A stretch of DNA of 64,000 nt from Arabidopsis thaliana (taxonomy: Eukaryota; Streptophyta; Magnoliopsida; Brassicales; Brassicaceae), in contig NC_003070.9 of NCBI RefSeq assembly GCF_000001735.4, positions 27,079,971 to 27,143,970 on the forward strand, written 5' to 3'. A model generated the notes under the pieces. That model saw only the letters and a program-made list of their open reading frames with translations. It ran no database searches and was not told the origin of the DNA. A program made the position numbers and the translations under genes. Below, piece after piece: positions 5,352 through 59,253 of this stretch. How positions within the stretch are numbered: position 1 is the first letter of the stretch; each line of letters begins with the position of its first letter.

Positions 5352-8193
5352 AGGACCATGAAAGAATGAATATTTATCATCAGTACACTGAATGACCAAA
5401 CGAACATAAGTTTGGTCCACACTTTTTAATCATGTATATGCCTAAAACGTCAAAACACTCGTACCATTATTTGGTACTTACTAGCTTGTTTAGGATTAGC
5501 AAGGACGAATTGGAATAAATTAACGTGACCTCAAGGATCCGTCTCTTTAGATTTTAAGATCGTAAATTTCCTAGAAGTCCTTTTCTATTTCCTAAGTGGA
5601 AATATTATTTATATTCAAAAAAAGAGTTGACTATGAAGAATGCAAATACCTATGCAGGTTTTCTTCACAAATCACAATGAGACTCAAAAAACATTGAAAC
5701 TGAGTTAAGAGTACCCTGACTTCTGACTATTCCAATTCCCGAAGCTCTATGTTTTATTGCTTCGATGAGGATTGAAAGAGAGTTAACAGCACGCGCTAAA
5801 TGCGAGAGTGTGATTGGGTTCCCTTAGGCGGTTATCTCCTAAAGTAAAGTTTTCCCGAATCAAGGATTTATGGACAATACGTAAGAGCATACAATCAAAA
5901 CCACACGCCTCCGTCGACTCGTGTAGCTTAAACGCCACACACAAAATAAATAAAACAAAAGCAGAGAGAAAGAGTGTGAGAAGACTACTTTGATCAAAAG
6001 AATGTAAAAGCCAAAAGGATGTTAATTTTTAAAGTTGGCTGAAGAAAAAGAGAATAAGAATTATTGGGAAAACAGAAAAAGATAAGAGATAAAATGGAAA
6101 AGTTTAGATAGTGCAAAAAAAAGACGAACTAATTTTTGAAAAAGTTGGATAAAGAGGAAACAGAAAACACAATGCCCATCGCTAAAACCATACGTCATCT
6201 TGTAACCAGTTAGACACATGGTGTTTTCCTATACACCCGTTTTTTAAAAACAACCAAAATTAATATCATTTTCCTCTCTTTTTATTATCCCTCAAAAATA
6301 AATAAAAAGCATGGTTTAATAGTGTAATGGGTAATGCGATAAAAGATTTTCATATAAAAGCAGGGAATAACATTTATTCAGATGATATATAATATGCCAA
6401 AATTTTAGACCCCAAAAATCATACAAATCATACTCGAAAAAAAGAGAAAGAAAGACTTAACACGTATCCCCAATTGCCCATAATTATTAACTTTAGAATA
6501 AACAATTATTGGAAAAAAAACGGTGAGAAAAAGGATGCTATATCAATATTAATCTAATGCTAGAACCGTACTAATGTAATAGCTATAGATTAGGGCTAGT
6601 TTAACTCCAAAGACAAAGCAATAAATCAAGTAATTAAATTTGTAGCCAGCGCGACGACCATCGTCAACGAGGGACACATCAAAACTTGGACTTGCATAGC
6701 TCTCATCGTACGTCGGCGATAACGTTCATAAATAAGCATTTATTACTCTCTTTTTTTGGGGTCGAGCTGTTATTTTCATAGTAGTTTTCTACACAAATAT
6801 CTACCCTCACGGCCTCCCCACATGATCGTATTATGCATGGTTTCAATACCAAAGATCCATATTATACGTATAGATATACACGTATAAATATGATTTCTTT
6901 TTAAAAAAAAATCATCCTATCATCAGTCAATTCGTGTAAGAATACTTTCACGCAAATTAAATATAAAACGGGAATCATAAGTCATATAGTAAAAGTATTC
7001 GGTTAATTCAATCATATAATGATTTAAGTTAATTATCGTGTTAGTACATACACTACGTAAATGAAAGTTTAAAAGCTGTATTTTAAAAGAGAACGTACCG
7101 TTAGCAAGATCAAGAAGAAAATCAGCCGGATTCATAGGAAAAGCCGGCGAAAATCCGACGGATTCAAAGTAAGCCATGGCGTCTCTTCCTTTTCCGACGA
7201 ACAAACACTTTCCTTCACTCAAAAGAAGCACCGTATCAAACATCTGAAACACACGACTCGACGGCTGATGAATCGACGTAACCACCGTTTTTCCTTTCCC
7301 ATGAGCCAACCCGGCAAGAGTCTGAACCAACCGGAGCGCCGCCGTAGCATCAAGACCCGAAGTAGGCTCATCAAGAACCAAAAGACTCGGGTTTATAAGC
7401 AATTCATGAGCTATACTAACTCGTTTCCTTTCTCCACCAGAGATACCTCTAATGAAAGTGTTCCCAACGACTGTGTTCTCACATTTCGTTAAACCTAGCT
7501 CCGATATAACCGATTCAGCGGCTCTGAGTTTAACGTCTCTTGTTAGACTCCGAGGAAGACGAAGCAAAGCCACGAAAACTAAGGTTTCACGTACGGTTAA
7601 GTGAGGGTAAAGAAGATCGTCTTGTGCTACAAATCCGGTGCGTTTTAATGTTTGTTTCGTTATTTTACCGTCGTTTATAAGTATTTTTCCGGTGAGGTTT
7701 GATCCATGGAGTCTCCCTGCGACTGCGTTTAGTAGCGTAGATTTGCCACTTCCCGATGGTCCAAGAACGGCCATAAACTCGCCGGGTGATATCATTCCGG
7801 TGACTCCGCTTAGTATCGTCCTCTCCTCCGTCGATCTTGTCTCATCGGACGGTTTTTGTTTTAATCCTAATAGTTTCTTGATATTACAAGAATCGTTACT
7901 CATGCCATGGATCTTGACTCGGTAACACACATCAACGAACTAATATCAAGAAACCAATAAAAAAACAGAGTCAAGAACAGAGTCAAAACTAGTCAACAAT
8001 AGATTAGTGTGGTTTAAATTTTAGAAAATACGAATTAAATATTGAAAATCTGAGTTTTGTTAAGTGAAACCTTGAGGGTGATTGGGAAACAAGAAGATGA
8101 TAATAATGAGCGAGGCTCACGAGGATCTTGAGAGAGACGAGGAGATGAATCTGGACCGTTCATTTGATTTTCAACGCCGTCAAAAGCTGACAT
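2617..8193 (-). CDS. ABCG25: ABCG25, half-size ABC transporter (abscisic acid exporter)
   Basis: Four coding exons: 8193-8071, 7939-7099, 3710-3373 and 3303-2617, giving 662 aa. The nucleotide-binding domain comes first, as in all ABCG (WBC) proteins: Walker [10 protein letters not shown] at 101-109, signature ISGGE at 207-211, Walker B LLVLDE at 227-232. An ABC2-type membrane domain with about six segments fills residues 370-660. As a half transporter it should dimerise. ABCG25 is known as a plasma-membrane exporter of abscisic acid from vascular cells; I assign it from sequence recognition and exact length. The intron between exons 2 and 3 is 3388 bp, very large for Arabidopsis. Two ABRE-like motifs lie upstream of a TATA-like box, fitting ABA-responsive expression. 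Confidence 0.95.
3711..7098 (-). other. 3.4 kb intron of ABCG25
   Basis: The donor after residue 321 (7098) and the acceptor at 3711 join in frame (Gly codon split), so the whole stretch is intronic. It is AT-rich, contains a (AT)17 microsatellite, and has no open frame with recognisable motifs on either strand. I find no nested gene and no clear transposon ends. Confidence 0.8.
5311..5344. repeat. (AT)n microsatellite, about 17 units
   Basis: An uninterrupted AT dinucleotide run inside the large ABCG25 intron, followed by a slightly degenerate tail. It is likely to vary in length between accessions. Confidence 0.95.
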
Positions 8194-35028: not shown

Positions 35029-35111
35029 GGCCATTGTTACTTCAGCTTCTACTGTGCGGCGTCTTGATGGAGGAGATAAACCCTAGTTCTTCTGTAGACA
35101 ATAAGAGAGAC

Positions 35112-37258
35112 ATGGCGGAAGAAGCTAAAGTTGATGTGAAGACTTCGGCGAAGAAGGATATACGCAATTATCTATGCCAGTATTGCGGAATCAGCAGATC
35201 TAAAAACTATCTCATCACTAAACACATCCAATCTCATCATCAGGTTTGAGATCTTCCTCCAATTCGATTCCAATTTCTCATCCGTGGCATCTTGATTTGT
35301 TTTCAATGAAATTGAGAGTTGAGTCTGTAGAATCGGCGATGGTTTGTTGAATTGAGAGTTTCTATGATTCGTTTGTTTAGATGGAACTTGAAGAGGAAAG
35401 AGATGATGAAGCTTGTGAGGTTGATGAGGAGTCTTCAAGTAATCATACTTGTCAAGAATGTGGTGCTGAGTTTAAGAAACCTGCTCACTTGAAGCAGCAT
35501 ATGCAGAGTCATTCGCTCGAGGTAGATTTATGCATCCTCTTGTCATGAGAAGTCGAATTGTTCCCATTCTGTGTGTTGCAGCTACAGATGGAGATACATA
35601 GAGATACTCGTGGATTTTGCTTAGTGTTGAGTTTTGTTCTGGTTGTGAACTAAAAGTTTATACATTTGCAGGAAATAAATAGCCTTTTGTTTAAATCAAA
35701 AGGTCTTACCTATGTTATTGCGTGAGGCATTGGATCCCAAAGAGAGAACTCCAAAATGCGAGGCTACATGTTATGGACTAGTATCAGGTTGGGAGACCTC
35801 CTGAGAAGCTCCAGCAAGTAAGCCTCGATCACGCAAAATGTTTGAGGTCTGATGTTCAATAGCTTGTTTTGTTTCACTTTGCTTTGGACTTTCTTTTCGC
35901 CAATGAGCTATGTTTCTGATGGTTTTCACTCTTTTGGTGTGTAGAGATCTTTTACTTGCTATGTGGATGATTGTGCTGCTAGCTATAGGAGGAAGGATCA
36001 TCTCAATAGGCATCTTCTTACACATAAAGGGAAGCTCTTTAAGTGTCCGAAGGAGAACTGCAAGAGTGAATTCTCAGTACAGGGAAATGTTGGTAGGCAT
36101 GTTAAGAAATATCATAGTAATGACAACCGTGATAAGGACAATACTGGTTTGGGCGATGGTGATAAGGACAATACTTGTAAGGGGGATGATGATAAGGAAA
36201 AATCTGGTAGTGGCGGTTGTGAGAAGGAAAATGAAGGGAATGGCGGAAGTGGTAAGGACAATAATGGTAATGGCGATTCTCAGCCTGCGGAGTGTTCAAC
36301 TGGTCAGAAGCAGGTTGTCTGCAAAGAAATTGGTTGTGGAAAAGCCTTTAAGTATCCTTCACAGCTTCAAAAGCATCAGGATTCTCATGGTAAGTGCACC
36401 TTCCTACCCTTACTTTCCCTCTAGTTTAGTATCCTGGGCATATGAAGATTTCTACGTTTCCTCTCTATGTGCTTTGTTATAAATTAAAGACAGTTGTTTG
36501 TTAAAGCTTGATAGATTTTCAATCTCTGAAGGTTTAGATTTACATTTGCAGTGAAATTAGACTCTGTGGAGGCATTTTGTTCCGAGCCTGGGTGTATGAA
36601 GTACTTTACCAACGAAGAATGCCTCAAGTCACACATAAGATCCTGTCATCAGCACATCAACTGTGAGATATGTGGTTCTAAGCATTTGAAAAAGAACATC
36701 AAGAGACATCTACGGACTCATGATGAAGATTCCTCACCAGGAGAAATCAAGTGTGAAGTTGAGGGTTGCTCTTCGACTTTCTCCAAGGTAAAGAAACATC
36801 CTGAGCTACGTCAAACTTATATAGTCCAAAACAAGTTTCGTTTCCAGATTATTCAACATCACTAATTACATTACGATTATTTCTCAGGCTTCTAATCTTC
36901 AGAAACACATGAAAGCAGTGCACGATGATATACGTCCCTTTGTCTGTGGCTTTCCCGGTTGTGGCATGAGATTTGCTTACAAACATGTCAGAAACAAGCA
37001 CGAGAATTCCGGGTATCACGTATATACCTGCGTAAGTTCATCCAACCTACATACTATCGTGTTTTTCTTACAAACTCAAAAGACTAGAATCTCATGTAAA
37101 ACTGAATGTGGTTTCAGGGTGATTTTGTCGAAACTGATGAAGATTTCACTTCAAGACCGAGAGGTGGACTAAAGAGGAAACAAGTTACTGCGGAAATGCT
37201 GGTACGAAAGAGAGTCATGCCTCCTCGGTTTGATGCAGAAGAACACGAAACTTGCTAG
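35112..37258 (+). CDS. TFIIIA: TFIIIA, nine-zinc-finger factor for 5S rRNA transcription
   Basis: Six constitutive coding exons: 35112-35243, 35381-35521, 35945-36389, 36552-36787, 36888-37031 and 37118-37258, giving 412 aa. C2H2 fingers start at [20 protein letters not shown] and continue to the ninth ([20 protein letters not shown]...H). A long, low-complexity Asp/Lys/Gly/Asn-rich spacer (residues about 145-205, with DKDNT-like repeats) separates fingers 4 and 5, a known feature of plant TFIIIA. It binds the 5S gene internal control region for Pol III and also binds 5S rRNA. A cassette exon between the second and third coding exons resembles 5S rRNA and contains a stop. An in-frame ATG at 35067 could add 15 residues (MEEINPSSSVDNKRD). 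It should be At1g72050. Confidence 0.95.
35672..35817 (+). ncRNA. P5SM: P5SM: 5S rRNA-mimicking cassette exon of TFIIIA
   Basis: Acceptor TTTGCAG ends at 35671 and donor AA|GTAAGC begins at 35818. The 146 nt cassette is not a multiple of three and, read on from the preceding exon, reaches TGA at 35723-35725, so inclusion ends translation early and should trigger nonsense-mediated decay. The segment about 35702-35815 parallels plant 5S rRNA in order: TGGATCCCA, GAGAACTCC, ATGCGAGG, TAGTATCAGG, GGGAGACCTCCTGAGAAG. The last differs from 5S (GGGTGACCTCCTGGGAAG) at two positions. Published work on this element shows that ribosomal protein L5 binding to it controls splicing and feeds 5S rRNA/L5 balance back on TFIIIA. 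The resemblance is seen here; the mechanism is from that literature. Confidence 0.9.
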
Positions 37259-37376: not shown

Positions 37377-37533
37377 TATAAGTAATGTTGTGCTTAGAAT
37401 CTATGTTCGTTTAACCTTTTATCTCCCACGGCTTTAATGTATTGAACCCAACGTTTGAGATATAAGTAATGTTGTGCTTATAATCTATGTTCGTTTAACC
37501 TTTTTATCTCCCACGGCTTTGATGTCTTGAACC
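37377..37533. repeat. 83 bp tandem duplication, second copy interrupted
   Basis: Unit 1 runs from 37377 to 37459 and unit 2 from 37460, both beginning ATATAAGTAATGTTGTGCTT and sharing TATGTTCGTTTAACC and TCTCCCACGGCTTT. Unit 2 breaks off at 37533 and its remaining bases resume at 38235 after the inserted element. Confidence 0.85.
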
Positions 37534-52162: not shown

Positions 52163-54005
52163 ATGACGACTACTTCAGAAATTTCTCTTCAAGAAGAATA
52201 CGTCACCGACGCCGTTGACCACCGTGGACTTGCCGCCAGAAGATCCAATACCGGTAGATGGAGAGCCGCCTTGTTCATAATCGGTAAGCTCCAATCACAA
52301 ACTGCTCTGTTTCTCAATTTCTTCCTCTTTGAATCTCTCTGAGAATATATTTGCAGGTGTGGAGGTGGCTGAGAGGTTCGCTTACTATGGAATCGGATCA
52401 AACTTAATAAGCTACTTGACTGGACCACTTGGTGAATCCACGGCTGTAGCCGCCGCTAATGTCAACGCGTGGTCAGGAATTGCCACTCTTCTTCCTGTTC
52501 TTGGAGCTTTTGTCGCCGACGCATTTCTCGGTCGTTACCGAACAATTATCATCTCTTCTCTTATCTACGTCCTGGTTCGTTCTCTTCTCTTTAGTCTTTT
52601 TTTCTTTTGGTTTACTTGTTCTTCATGATTGAGAAGTAACTTAAAGAAGAATTTGAATTTGATGTGTTAGGGATTGGCGTTTCTGACTTTATCTGCGTTT
52701 CTGATTCCCAATACTACTGAAGTGACATCTTCAACTTCTTCTTTTCTCAATGTACTCTTCTTCTTCTCTCTGTATTTGGTGGCTATTGGACAAAGTGGAC
52801 ACAAGCCTTGTGTTCAAGCTTTTGGTGCTGACCAGTTTGATGAAAAAGACTCTCAAGAGAAATCTGACAGAAGCTCCTTCTTCAACTGGTGGTACCTTAG
52901 TCTGTCTGCAGGAATCTGCTTTGCGATTTTAGTTGTTGTATACATCCAGGAAGAGTTCAGCTGGGCTTTTGGGTTTGGAATCCCATGTGTGTTCATGGTG
53001 ATCTCTCTTGTTCTTTTCGTGTCAGGGAGAAGGATTTATAGGTACAGTAAAAGAAGACATGAAGAGGAAATAAACCCTTTTACGAGGATAGGTAGAGTCT
53101 TCTTTGTAGCACTCAAGAACCAAAGATTGAGTTCATCAGACTTGTGCAAAGTTGAGCTAGAGGCAAATACATCCCCAGAGAAACAGAGTTTTTTCAACAA
53201 AGCATTGCTTGTACCCAATGATTCTTCTCAAGGAGAAAACGCATCCAAGTCTAGTGATGTTGAAGATGCCACAGCTCTTATCAGGCTAATTCCAGTATGG
53301 TTTACGACTCTGGCTTACGCGATACCCTACGCGCAATACATGACATTTTTCACTAAGCAAGGCGTCACAATGGATAGAACAATTCTTCCTGGTGTTAAGA
53401 TCCCACCTGCTTCTCTTCAGGTCTTTATCGGCATATCAATAGTCCTCTTTGTCCCCATCTACGACCGAGTTTTCGTCCCCATCGCCAGGTTAATAACCAA
53501 AGAACCTTGTGGCATCACAACCCTCAAAAGAATTGGAACTGGAATTGTACTGTCGACTATCACTATGGTAATTGCAGCTCTGGTTGAGTTCAAGCGGCTC
53601 GAGACTGCGAAAGAACACGGGCTTATAGACCAACCGGAAGCAACTCTTCCAATGTCGATATGGTGGTTAATCCCTCAGTACTTGTTGCTGGGATTGGCTG
53701 ACGTATATACTTTAGTGGGAATGCAAGAGTTCTTCTACAGCCAAGTCCCTACTGAGCTGAGAAGCATCGGTCTCGCGCTTTACTTAAGCGCGTTGGGCGT
53801 GGGAAGCTTATTAAGCAGCTTACTCATCTCTCTGATAGACTTGGCCACTGGAGGAGACGCAGGAAACAGCTGGTTTAACAGTAATCTGAACAGAGCTCAT
53901 CTTGATTACTTCTATTGGTTACTAGCGATTGTTAGCGCCGTTGGGTTCTTTACGTTCTTGTTCATTTCCAAGTCGTACATCTATCGTCGAGTGGATCGAG
54001 TGTAG
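52163..54005 (+). CDS. NPF5.14: NPF5.14, NRT1/PTR-family proton-coupled transporter
   Basis: Three exons: 52163-52283, 52357-52574 and 52671-54005, giving 557 aa. Twelve membrane segments are expected, with the central loop around 240-300. The proton-coupling ExxER motif is at 43-47 ([10 protein letters not shown]). Other POT-family marks are [30 protein letters not shown] and [14 protein letters not shown]. The family moves nitrate, peptides and hormones; the substrate of this member is not known to me. Unlike its neighbours it has no intron before FFNKALL, where the other copies keep one, which points to intron loss. It should be At1g72120. Confidence 0.92.
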
Positions 54006-54197
54006 TTTCCAAATGAAAAAAAAATGCTTCTTTAACATTAAGTTACTTCTTGATGGTCTCTGTAGTTTGTATACTGTAACTTTACACAAAATAAGTTTTT
54101 TAATCATAAAAAGACAAGAAATACCTTTTGAAGGTCAAACAAACTCAAACAAGTTTCTATATGTTGTTTATTGTCTCTTTCGTTAGAGACAGAGAAA
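54006..54197. other. 192 bp spacer between NPF5.14 and NPF5.13
   Basis: This must hold the NPF5.14 3' untranslated region together with the NPF5.13 promoter and leader. The last 100 bases resemble the NPF5.14 leader (both contain GTCTCTTTCGTT just before the start), so they were copied with the gene. Confidence 0.75.
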
Positions 54198-56287
54198 ATG
54201 ACGACGACTTCCAAAACTTCTCTTCAAGAAGAATACGTCATCGACGCCGTTGACCACCGTGGCTTTTCCGCCAGAAGGTCTATTACCGGTAGATGGAGAG
54301 CTGCATGGTTCATTATCGGTAACCTTCAATCACTAGCTGCTCTGTTTTTCAATTTCCTCTTCTTTGAATCCCTGAGGACATTTTTGCAGGTGTGGAGGTG
54401 GCGGAGAGGTTCGCGAACTACGGGATCGGATCAAACCTGATAAGCTACTTGACTGGACCACTTGGTCAATCTACGGCGGTCGCCGCCGCTAATGTCAACG
54501 CTTGGTCTGGAATTTCCACTATTCTTCCTCTTCTTGGAGCTTTTGTCGCCGACGCTTTTCTTGGTCGCTACATAACAATTATCATCGCTTCTTTTATCTA
54601 TGTCCTGGTTCGTCTCCTTCTGTCTCTTCTCTTTCGATCTGAATTTTACAATTAGTGAAGGAATTGTAGAAATTGATTCGTTTCAACCGCAATGTGATGG
54701 TTTGGTACGGTTTCGGTTTTGATTAAGTCAAATAAAATTTTTAATTTTCAAAGAAACTTCGGTTTTAGATCGGTTTTATTCCTTTTCGGTTTGATTTGGA
54801 TTCGGTTTCTCTGATATAGAAGAAGTAGAAATTGAGTTGAGAATATTTGAATTTGATGTCAGGGACTGGCGTTTCTGACTTTATCTGCGTTTCTGATTCC
54901 CAACAATACTGAAGTGACCTCGTCACCTTCTTCTTTTCTCAATGCACTCTTCTTCTTCTCTCTTTATTTGGTGGCTATTGGACAAAGTGGACACAAGCCT
55001 TGTGTTCAGGCTTTTGGTGCAGATCAGTTTGATGAGAAGAACCCGCAAGAGAATAGTGATAGAAGCTCTTTCTTCAACTGGTGGTACCTTAGTATGTGTG
55101 CAGGAATCGGCCTAGCGATTTTAGTGGTTGTGTACATCCAAGAAAATGTAAGCTGGGCACTTGGGTTTGGAATCCCATGTGTGTTCATGGTGATCTCTCT
55201 TGTTCTTTTCGTTTTAGGGAGAAAGAGTTATAGGTTTAGTAAAACAAGACAAGAAGAGGAAACAAACCCGTTTACGAGAATAGGTAGAGTCTTCTTTGTA
55301 GCATTCAAGAACCAGAGATTGAATTCATCAGACTTGTGCAAAGTTGAGCTAATAGAGGCAAATCGATCTCAAGAATCTCCAGAGGAGCTGAGGTATGTTT
55401 AACATATAGGTTGTGGTTCGAACTTCAAAGTCTTGTTGTATGATTATAAGATTCTACTTTCTTGTGACAGTTTTCTCAACAAAGCATTGCTTGTCCCAAA
55501 TGATTCTGATGAAGGAGAAGTGGCATGCAAGTCTAGAGATGTCGAAGATGCTACAGCTCTTGTCAGGCTTATTCCAGTATGGCTTACAACTTTGGCTTAC
55601 GCGATACCTTTCGCGCAGTACATGACTTTCTTTACAAAGCAAGGTGTCACAATGGAAAGAACAATATTTCCAGGTGTAGAGATCCCACCTGCTTCTCTTC
55701 AGGTTCTTATCAGCATATCAATTGTTCTCTTTGTCCCCATCTATGACCGTGTTTTGGTCCCAATCGGAAGGTCAATAACTAAAGATCCTTGTGGCATCAC
55801 AACTCTCAAAAGAATTGGAACCGGAATGGTACTAGCAACTCTCACTATGGTGGTGGCTGCTTTGGTTGAGTCAAAGCGGCTCGAGACTGCAAAAGAATAC
55901 GGACTTATAGACCAACCGAAAACAACTCTTCCAATGTCGATATGGTGGTTATTCCCTCAGTATATGTTACTGGGATTGGCTGACGTACACACTTTAGTAG
56001 GAATGCAAGAGTTCTTCTACAGCCAAGTCCCCACTGAGCTGAGAAGCCTCGGTCTCGCGATTTACTTAAGTGCAATGGGCGTTGGAAGCTTATTAAGCAG
56101 CTTACTCATCTATCTGATCGATTTGGCCACTGGAGGAGACGCCGGAAACAGCTGGTTCAACAGTAATCTGAACAGAGCCCATCTAGATTACTTCTATTGG
56201 TTACTTGCGGTTGTTAGTGCCGTTGGGTTCTTTACGTTCTTGTTCATCTCCAAGTCCTATATATATCGCCGGGTGGACGTAGTGTAG
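54198..56287 (+). CDS. NPF5.13: NPF5.13, NRT1/PTR-family transporter
   Basis: Four exons: 54198-54318, 54390-54607, 54863-55392 and 55471-56287, giving 561 aa. It is very close to NPF5.14 along its whole length. ExxER is intact at 43-47 ([10 protein letters not shown]), but the Tyr that usually follows (FAYYG) is Asn here. Intron 2 is 255 bp and contains many CGGTTT-like strings absent from the sister copy. The intron before FLNKALL is kept. It should be At1g72125; older annotations, as I recall, fused it with NPF5.14. Transport substrate unknown. Confidence 0.92.
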
Positions 56288-57230
56288 TTTACGCATGGAG
56301 GAGGAAATGGAGAGTTTCTTTTTGTGATTTTTGATTTTTATGGACGTTACGATTCTAACGTAAAACTCCCACAAATGACAAAACAGACCATAAATATCAT
56401 GATTCTTATGTGAATTTGTAACTATATTTCAAGTATGCAAATTTGATATTAAATTGTGATTCCACGATTCTAACGTAAAAATAACATTATGCAAATATTT
56501 ATGTATGAATGTACGGCCAGTGCTATAAAGATCGTTGAAACTTGTTGAATTTTAATCCCCATGCAAGAGTTTAATACATAAAAACAAAATTAAAAAAATA
56601 AGACGTAAGTGGACAAGGTATTTAAAAAATAAATAAAATTGATTTATACATGTTTATAGGTTTTCTTCGTTTTCCATTCGTTTAAACCATTATAAAATAT
56701 AACTAACAACAAATTTTGTGGTCCATTCCCCGGTTCTTTATCTTCAATATTCTTAATCACATATGTGTCGTGCGTGAGCACAGCGACAATAAACAATTGA
56801 TTGTGGTCTCCAAAATTCTAGAGATTTTTTCTTTACAAAAACACCTCCAATTTTAAAAACTTACAAATAAAATCTTTTAAAAATTTTAGACCCTCGAAAT
56901 TTCAGGCCGACAGTGCATATATGTAAGCTCAAGAACACAAGGAATCTTAACTAGTTGAGCATGTTCCAACAACTTTCGAAATATACAAAACATATATATA
57001 TATATATATGGCCCTTTCGGGAACTTCTGCTAATAAAACAAAGTCCATACGAATCACGAGTTAAGTTAATTGTTATCGTGGTCATCATTTAATATAACTT
57101 GCCTTGTCAGCTAAGCCACTTGCGTCCACACCTTCATCATATAATCTTCACCTATATATACTACAGAAACAATATAATAAACATTTTGTTTGTATATTAT
57201 TTTATCAAGACCAATCAATCATACACATTA
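56288..57230. other. Spacer with the NPF5.11 promoter
   Basis: AT-rich. ACGATTCTAACGTAAAA occurs twice (about 56348 and 56465). A short (TA)n run lies at 56992-57009 and a TATA box CTATATATA at 57152-57160, about 70 bp before the NPF5.11 start. Confidence 0.55.
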
Positions 57231-59253
57231 ATGGCTATCACCTACTCCTCCGCCGACGAGCTCGGAAACACCACTGAGGGTTTTCTGGAAATCCGAGAAA
57301 ATACCTCCGGTGGATGGAAATCAGCGAGGCTCATCATCGGTAAATAAACATGATATTTACTTTTTTAGCAACAAAAAAATTGATTTAGTTCCTTACTTCA
57401 TTATTATTTCTCCCGGGAATTTTGCTAATTTCTCTTTGTTTTTGTTTCTAAAAATTTTGTAGTTGTACAAATGGCGGAGCGATTCGCTTACTTTGGTATA
57501 GCGTCAAACCTAATAATGTACTTGACGGGACCGTTAGGTGAGTCAACAGCTGCAGCGGCAGCGAATGTCAATGCTTGGACTGGAACGGTGGCGTTTCTGC
57601 CGCTTCTCGGGGGCTTTCTCGCTGACTCGTATCTCGGTCGTTTCCGTACTATAATCATCTCATCTTCTCTCTATATCTTGGTAGATAAAAAAATTTCCTC
57701 TCTAACGTTTCTATAATCAGAGTTTCGTTACAGATTTTGATGATTAACGAAAACAAAACAAACAGGGACTTGGGTTGCTGTCTTTTTCAACCATGATTCC
57801 TTCTCATCAGTCCAAAGATTCGAATCAGCTGCAAGAGACTATCTTCTTCTTCTCTCTTTATCTTGTAGCAATAGGACAAGGCGGTTACAACCCGTGTATT
57901 AAGGTATTTGGAGCGGATCAATTCGATGGAAATGATCATAAAGAGGCAAGAGACAAGAGTTCATTCTTCAACTGGTTGATGTTTGGAAACTGTATTAGCA
58001 TATTGACGACTCGTTTGGTCTCTACCTACATTCAAGAGAACCTAAGCTGGTCACTAGGGTTTGGTATTCCTAGTGTTTCCATGTTGCTTTCTCTGTTTCT
58101 CTTCCTCCTTGGAACTACCTCTTACCGTTTTAGTACTGAGAGAGTAGGAAAGAAAAACCCTTTTGCCAGAATCAGTCGTGTATTCATGGAGGCTTTAAAG
58201 AACAGAAGACAACCCGATTTAGATATTGCTAACGCGAACGCCAACGAGACTCTCCTTCTCCTGGCTCACCAGAGTTCCAAACAGTTCAGGTAACATAATT
58301 AACAGCGATGTTCTTTTGAGAATCTTCTTGTTCATACCATCTTGGTTTCTATTAGTGAATCCACGTCGATATATTAGAGAAGAAATGTATATTGTTCCAT
58401 CTAGGTTTTTATATATACCAACTGATATTTAGAAAAATTATTATAAGAAAACGAAGTTTATAGTTTCTTTTCTTGTATACTATGCAGATTCCTAGACAGG
58501 GCAGCTATTTCTTGTGAATTGGCTGAAATTGAAGAAGCAAAGGCGGTTCTTAGGCTTATTCCCATATGGATAACTTCTGTAGTCTACACCATTGTACATG
58601 CACAATCCCCTACTTTTTTTACAAAGCAAGGAGCCACAATGGACAGGTCAATCTCACCAGGACTCTTAGTTCCTGCAGCTACACTTCAAAGTTTCATAAA
58701 CCTCTCAGTAGTCGTTTTCATCCCAATCTACGACCGCTTACTCGTCCCATTCGCAAGGTCCTTCACTCAAAACTCATCAGGTATCACAACGCTACAAAGG
58801 ATTGGTACAGGGATTTTCCTCTCCATTCTTGCTATGGTATTAGCCGCATTGGTCGAGACAAAAAGGCTCCAAGCCGCCCGGGATGAACTCTCCATACCGA
58901 TGAGCGTGTGGTGGCTGATTCCACAGTATGTTATCTTTGGAGTCTCAGATATGTTCACAATGGTGGGTTTACAAGAGTTCTTCTACGGCCAAGTCCCTAG
59001 TGAGCTTAGGAGCGTTGGTATGGCTTTGAACCTAAGCATATACGGGGCGGGAAACTACCTAAGCAGCTTTATGATATCAGTCATTGATAAAATCACGAAC
59101 CAGTATGGTCAAAGGAGCTGGTTCGATAATGACTTGGACCAAGCTCATCTAGATTACTTCTACTGGCTACTGGCTTGTCTCGGCTTCATTGGTTTCGCCT
59201 TCTACTTATGGTTCGCCAAGTCATATGTCTACAGCAGATCAAACACCTTTTAA
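57231..59253 (+). CDS. NPF5.11: NPF5.11, tonoplast nitrate transporter of the NRT1/PTR family
   Basis: Four exons: 57231-57339, 57463-57680, 57766-58289 and 58488-59253, giving 538 aa. Typical NPF features are present: [41 protein letters not shown] and [14 protein letters not shown]. The first Glu of the ExxE[K/R] motif is replaced by Gln (QMAER, residues 39-43). I recall NPF5.11 (At1g72130), with NPF5.12 and NPF5.16, as tonoplast proteins that release vacuolar nitrate to the cytosol; that is from literature, not sequence. A promoter TATA box lies 70 bp upstream. Confidence 0.92.

Follow-up and report, generated by a model that had tools for sequence, protein, structure and literature searches.

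The stretch of DNA analyzed here, hereafter the window, comprises 64,000 nucleotides from Arabidopsis thaliana, and a gene for TFIIIA lies on its + strand at positions 35112-37258. Spliced translation of this gene gives a 412-residue product in which the pattern of nine C2H2 fingers is found, and GT...AG borders are present on all of its introns. The coding exons, together with the cassette exon that is the subject of this study and the stop codon that it introduces, are as follows:

35112-35243, 35381-35521 and 35945-36389, + strand: constitutive coding exons of TFIIIA (from spliced translation)
36552-36787, 36888-37031 and 37118-37258, + strand: constitutive coding exons of TFIIIA, continued, the last including the stop (from spliced translation)
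35672-35817, + strand: cassette exon of 146 nt (2 mod 3), holding most of the 5S rRNA mimic (from splice dinucleotides, frame and 5S alignment; cassette use from the literature)
35723-35725, + strand: in-frame TGA that arises on exon inclusion, after zinc finger 2 (from spliced translation)

The Pfam family zf-C2H2 was matched in the protein, and a PDB search with it (E <=1e-15) returned seven sequences, all of a general zinc-finger kind. The gene is called TFIIIA on the grounds of its nine-finger layout, of the mimic exon itself and of its presumed identity with At1g72050, rather than of a database match. A published list gives AtTFIIIA as AT1G72050 (PMC9317785; this and the other papers are cited here from excerpts). 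By eye, an alternative ATG was seen at 35067, 45 nt 5' of the assumed start at 35112, in the same frame and with no intervening stop, and the true start of TFIIIA may be either of the two. Inspection by eye also revealed repetitive GATAAGGACAATACTGG-like units at 36120-36290, which encode a low-complexity Asp/Lys/Gly/Asn linker joining finger 4 to finger 5, and, right behind the TFIIIA stop (37380-37520), a TAAGTAATGTTGTGCTTA...CTATGTTCGTTTAACC stretch that occurs twice in near-identical copies. Elsewhere in the window, an ORF at 6923-7930 (- strand) shares 277 of 279 residues with ABCG25 of known structure (chain 8i38_A, residues 45-323), the only mismatches falling on the two terminal positions of the alignment; the chain is presumably that of Arabidopsis thaliana, and this identity marks the window as DNA of that species. 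Three consecutive ORFs at 52674-59250 matched the POT/PTR2 transporter family and have the look of a tandem cluster.

The sequence bore out the earlier note's exon of 146 nt at 35672-35817 with its flanking splice dinucleotides (acceptor AG at 35670-35671, donor GT at 35818-35819), and the TGA that it had tied to inclusion is indeed in frame in the spliced translation. When the exon is skipped, 35521 is joined to 35945 and the frame is kept. Inclusion adds 17 codons and then the TGA, resulting in a 108-residue product; this stop lies 92 nt from the exon end and has four exon junctions downstream. The layout of the inclusion mRNA fits nonsense-mediated decay, of which it would be a likely target, although a review, as excerpted, doubts the decay-target status of the TFIIIA inclusion message (PMC6164485). 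A separate hairpin, GCCUUUUG...CAAAAGGU, is predicted close to the start of the exon (35682-35704), outside its 5S-like part.

The exon was aligned with a typed-in A. thaliana 5S rRNA sequence, and all identities given here are relative to that sequence. The alignment spans 5S positions 21-105 of 120 and window positions 35723-35812, with 59 of 85 columns identical, and its local score is 65, whereas none of 5000 dinucleotide shuffles exceeded 51.5 (p ~5e-5 by a Gumbel fit). When the entire window was ranked in this way, the two tiles with the mimic came out at the top of 2128 tile-strand combinations, the runner-up score of 47 being shared by a third tile of the mimic site and one tile elsewhere. 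Identity is distributed unevenly. The blocks GGATCCCA (35732-35739) and AGAACTCC (35745-35752) each equal 5S at 8 of 8 positions, and the loop E/helix IV block (35779-35809) does so at 25 of 31, with one position opposite a gap. Between them, 35740-35744 has no identity in five positions, three of which lie opposite a gap, and 35753-35778 has 10 of 26, one position being opposite a gap. The 5S helix III pair C29-G48 has become U35731-A35753 in the mimic, so that pairing is kept. All four of the 5S landmarks previously listed for the exon are found, although not one of them matches the typed 5S exactly. The stretch that had been proposed as most unlike 5S, 35737-35775, coincides in part with the internal stretches that resemble 5S least (35740-35744 and 35753-35778). 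The most extensive mimic-specific portions, however, are formed by the outer helices of the predicted fold, 35708-35725/35829-35848 and 35760-35771/35814-35826, the second of which contains the donor.

A covariance search, which the earlier note had suggested as a check, gave a match to the full RF00001 model at 35702-35826 with 20.4 bits, whereas the gathering score of that family is 38 bits; by this threshold the mimic does not qualify as an RF00001 5S rRNA. The library-wide E-value of the match was 0.087 in a 423-nt scan and 0.035 in a 171-nt scan, and RF00001 was absent at E <=1 from a 12-kb scan, in which filters are tighter. No family reached its own threshold when the whole window was scanned at gathering scores, and RF00001 was unmatched at E <=10 in a 423-nt control stretch surrounding the best-scoring 5S alignment outside the mimic site. 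No P5SM family was returned by the covariance scans of the 171 nt, the 423 nt, the 12 kb, the whole window or the control stretch. The mimic is thus missed by a scan at Rfam thresholds. Judged from the sequence, the 5S likeness of the exon is real yet partial and diverged.

The plant 5S rRNA mimic (P5SM) was reportedly described by Hammond et al. 2009 and Fu et al. 2009. What was found here is a 5S-like exon flanked by constitutive exons in a plant TFIIIA gene (its cassette use being taken from the literature), a premature stop upon inclusion, and a 5S-like sequence and fold, weak by RF00001; the exon is very probably the P5SM cassette exon of A. thaliana TFIIIA, which is already known. Published accounts state that P5SM was discovered by comparison of A. 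thaliana and rice and that it is one of few plant RNA structures known to control splicing (PMC12218528), that exon skipping is triggered when the mimic is bound by L5 (PMC5972288; PMC12857756; PMC5568362), that the stop lies within the retained exon (PMC12857756; PMC5568362), and that the TFIIIA exon event is conserved from A. thaliana to mosses (PMC4374538). The gene, the stop after the first two fingers, the 5S-like element and the discovery species are common to P5SM (Hammond et al. 2009; Fu et al. 2009) and the exon described here, and no difference was found, the original 2009 descriptions being compared through excerpts of papers that cite them. This agreement supports the earlier reading of the exon as the published, L5-dependent P5SM. 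In relation to 5S rRNA (RF00001), the mimic has the loop C blocks, the loop E/helix IV blocks and a three-way junction in common, but scores below the gathering threshold, has its helix I and II counterparts replaced and has a longer helix V base. According to a review, RPL5 contacts 5S at helix II and loop C (PMC6164485), and the perfectly kept blocks of the mimic are the loop C blocks. The HyP5SM suicide-exon cassette is a P5SM derivative whose exon is retained when rice L5 is absent and skipped when this protein is supplied; it differs in being a construct, reportedly engineered for non-response to dicot L5 (PMC4538838). Pattern searches for plant relatives in non-plant collections of viral and genome contigs returned no stretch. 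With the protein encoded by TFIIIA exon 4, 25 pattern-matched stretches were obtained from the non-plant genome contigs, none of them confirmed, and four from the non-plant viral contigs, of which one (L001) was confirmed as a short 45% zinc-finger match.

Beyond the known P5SM, the present analysis adds the extent of the predicted fold, a putatively buried donor and the absent start of a seven-finger TFIIIA. The elements of the fold are as follows:

35708-35848, + strand: predicted three-way junction of 5S type, crossing the exon/intron border (MFE -46.4 kcal/mol, low z)
35727-35759, + strand: predicted arm like 5S helix III/loop C (from fold and alignment; in the MFE of 8 of 11 contexts)
35760-35826, + strand: predicted arm like 5S helix V/loop E/helix IV, with a longer base that includes the donor (from fold and alignment)
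35829-35848, + strand: predicted helix I equivalent, intronic strand, pairing with exon positions 35708-35725 (from fold and duplex energy)
35818-35822, + strand: cassette-exon donor GUAAG, predicted to be paired with 35764-35767 (from pair probabilities and opening cost)

The segment 35708-35848 had a z of -3.05 (2 of 300 shuffles as low) and, in a second run, of -3.06 (0 of 200). This segment was chosen after the fold was seen, and it was therefore checked against 121 segments of 141 nt along the gene, at 20-nt steps and with 60 shuffles each, on a grid set to include 35708. It had the lowest z of all 121 (-3.06), followed by those at 35948 (-2.62) and 35688 (-2.58); the second-lowest of these, 35948-36088, lies at the start of exon 4. 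Fold stability was unexceptional for the exon alone (z -0.63; 72 of 300 shuffles as low), for the exon with the entire downstream intron, 35672-35944 (z -1.17; 32 of 300), and for intron 2 (z -0.54; 80 of 300). As modeled, the 5S-like unit is thus not coextensive with the exon, since it leaves out the first 36 exon bases and takes in 31 bases of the downstream intron.

To gauge robustness, the fold was computed in 11 contexts ranging from 181 to 1009 nt in length. All 11 MFE structures contained the tested pairs of the donor helix and of helix IV, with probabilities of 0.97-0.99 and 1.0, respectively. Eight of them also had the outer helix and the arm of loop C; over all contexts the mean pair probabilities of these two elements were 0.32-1.0 and 0.29-0.92, the lowest of both being found in the exon with its two complete flanking introns, 35522-35944 (outer helix 0.32). 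In the other three contexts, including 35522-35944, the MFE had neither the outer helix nor the loop C arm. As a duplex, the outer helix has an energy of -15.1 kcal/mol, which was equaled by none of 2000 intron shuffles and by 16 of 9140 22-mers of the window. By total folding energy, sequences as good as its intronic half were found among dinucleotide-shuffled introns (283 of 2000), window 22-mers (40 of 2064), single-base shuffles (45 of 1000) and shuffles of the 22-mer alone (20 of 1000), so by this measure the half is not exceptional and no clear significance attaches to it. Overall, we regard the outer helix as a fair prediction. A different helix I, of RF00001 style and as aligned by cmscan (CUUAC 35705-35709/GUAAG 35818-35822), was considered and rejected. 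The junction extending into the intron is preferred because forcing this helix costs 13.7 kcal/mol (-42.3 vs. -56.0 kcal/mol); the donor is paired in both alternatives.

The pairs tested in the 5S-like arms had probabilities of 0.71-1.0 in a 573-nt stretch of pre-mRNA. When the inclusion mRNA was folded in its spliced form, as exons 2 and 3 with 156 nt of exon 4, they dropped to 0.11-0.50. Bases past the donor are needed for the outer helix and for the third arm at its base, so the predicted junction would be possible in pre-mRNA only.

A seven-finger protein, TFIIIA-7ZF, has been discussed in this context, and its origin, by translation of the inclusion mRNA or by proteolysis, is disputed; the review that describes the dispute favors translation, citing immunoblots that include A. 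thaliana (PMC6164485). In the spliced inclusion mRNA, exon 3 supplies the final in-frame stop ahead of finger 3, at 35779, and finger 3 starts at 35957. The first usable in-frame AUG after 35779 is at 36596, inside finger 6. Among near-cognate starts (nine codon types), only AAG at 35806 occurs from 35779 to 35957, as GTG at 35963 and later near-cognate codons fall past the finger 3 start. If intron 3 is retained, in-frame ATGs are available at 35852 and 35903, and both run into the stop at 35942. Because of the stops at 35779 and 35942 and the position of the next AUG at 36596, an AUG-started seven-finger protein is excluded on both the inclusion and the intron-3-retaining mRNAs. Going by these reading frames, TFIIIA-7ZF of A. 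thaliana would have to come from proteolysis, from a non-AUG start or from a message other than these two. The absent AUG bears on the dispute between proteolysis and translation (PMC6164485).

The donor of the cassette exon was then compared with other potential donors. Three of the five bases of GUAAG had pair probabilities of 0.96-1.0, and the two A's share U35765 at ~0.5 each. The cost of opening the donor (-3 to +6) was 10.0 kcal/mol, compared to 2.6-6.0 kcal/mol at the five other donors of the gene, and was the highest of 44 GTAAG sites on the + strand of the window, namely those away from its ends (median 3.88). Out of 300 GTA sites sampled from 767, five had a cost >= 10.0 kcal/mol, a sample that may include the cassette donor itself. 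The donor was paired in each of the 11 contexts folded, and its burial inside the fold is, in our view, a good prediction of the model.

The switch is read as follows. With L5 available, the 5S-like fold of the pre-mRNA would be bound by it, leading to exon skipping and to nine-finger TFIIIA; with L5 in short supply, e.g., because 5S rRNA takes it up, exon inclusion would follow, with the stop after finger 2 and likely decay of the message. We infer, leaning slightly towards this view, that L5 would cause skipping by stabilizing the fold and thereby keeping U1 off the donor. The full reading, in which the mimic is a device of pre-mRNA only, with the donor locked in the helix V extension, access of U1 clamped by L5, and TFIIIA-7ZF having no AUG start, is offered tentatively, with a probability of roughly 0.48. 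Donor masking clamped by L5 is not stated for P5SM in excerpts of later P5SM and plant-splicing literature (PMC12218528, PMC12857756, PMC10753412, PMC8617911, PMC4538838, PMC5972288), nor in those of PMC5568362, PMC10952736, PMC4374538, PMC6164485, PMC9317785 and PMC8909551, a set that is without Hammond 2009, Fu 2009 and Hickey et al. 2012. For a different plant motif, GRP7&8, occlusion of an alternative donor has been proposed (PMC12218528).

The same P5SM could conceivably work in another way, with L5 blocking enhancers or the acceptor, or recruiting a repressor, and with the pairing of the donor being incidental. We consider this doubtful, although a substantial possibility. The mean unpaired probability of the donor is only the 4th lowest of the 44 GTAAG sites, the intronic strand of the outer helix is unexceptional by total energy (283 of 2000), and the MFE lacks the outer helix in 3 of 11 contexts, points in favor of an incidental pairing. 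However, the opening cost of the donor tops the same 44 sites, the donor helix is predicted in all 11 contexts and, among the four stretches tested for fold stability, the significantly folded one is that which crosses the donor.

Direct autoregulation, in which 35786-35808 would have been kept as box-C-like DNA or RNA bound by TFIIIA itself rather than acting via L5, appears improbable. This segment equals the typed 5S at 20 of 23 bases, and we take its 5S counterpart to be box C of the 5S internal promoter, but 35753-35778, which is presumably aligned with box A, is the most diverged (10 of 26). Moreover, the identical blocks are those of loop C, in the RPL5-binding part of 5S (PMC6164485), and the literature names L5 (PMC5972288; PMC5568362). 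Lastly, a recent and functionless insertion of a 5S pseudogene or 5S-derived retroposon is hardly credible since, despite the 59 of 85 aligned columns that equal 5S, the change from C-G to U-A preserves the helix III pair, and conservation of the event throughout land plants, mosses included, has been reported (PMC4374538).

For a gene whose switch is already established, this analysis may still be of use through a testable prediction, that the donor of the cassette exon lies inside the fold, and through the lack of an AUG for TFIIIA-7ZF in A. thaliana. In P5SM, the shape of a ribosomal RNA is reused, and the synthesis of 5S rRNA is tied to the supply of L5.
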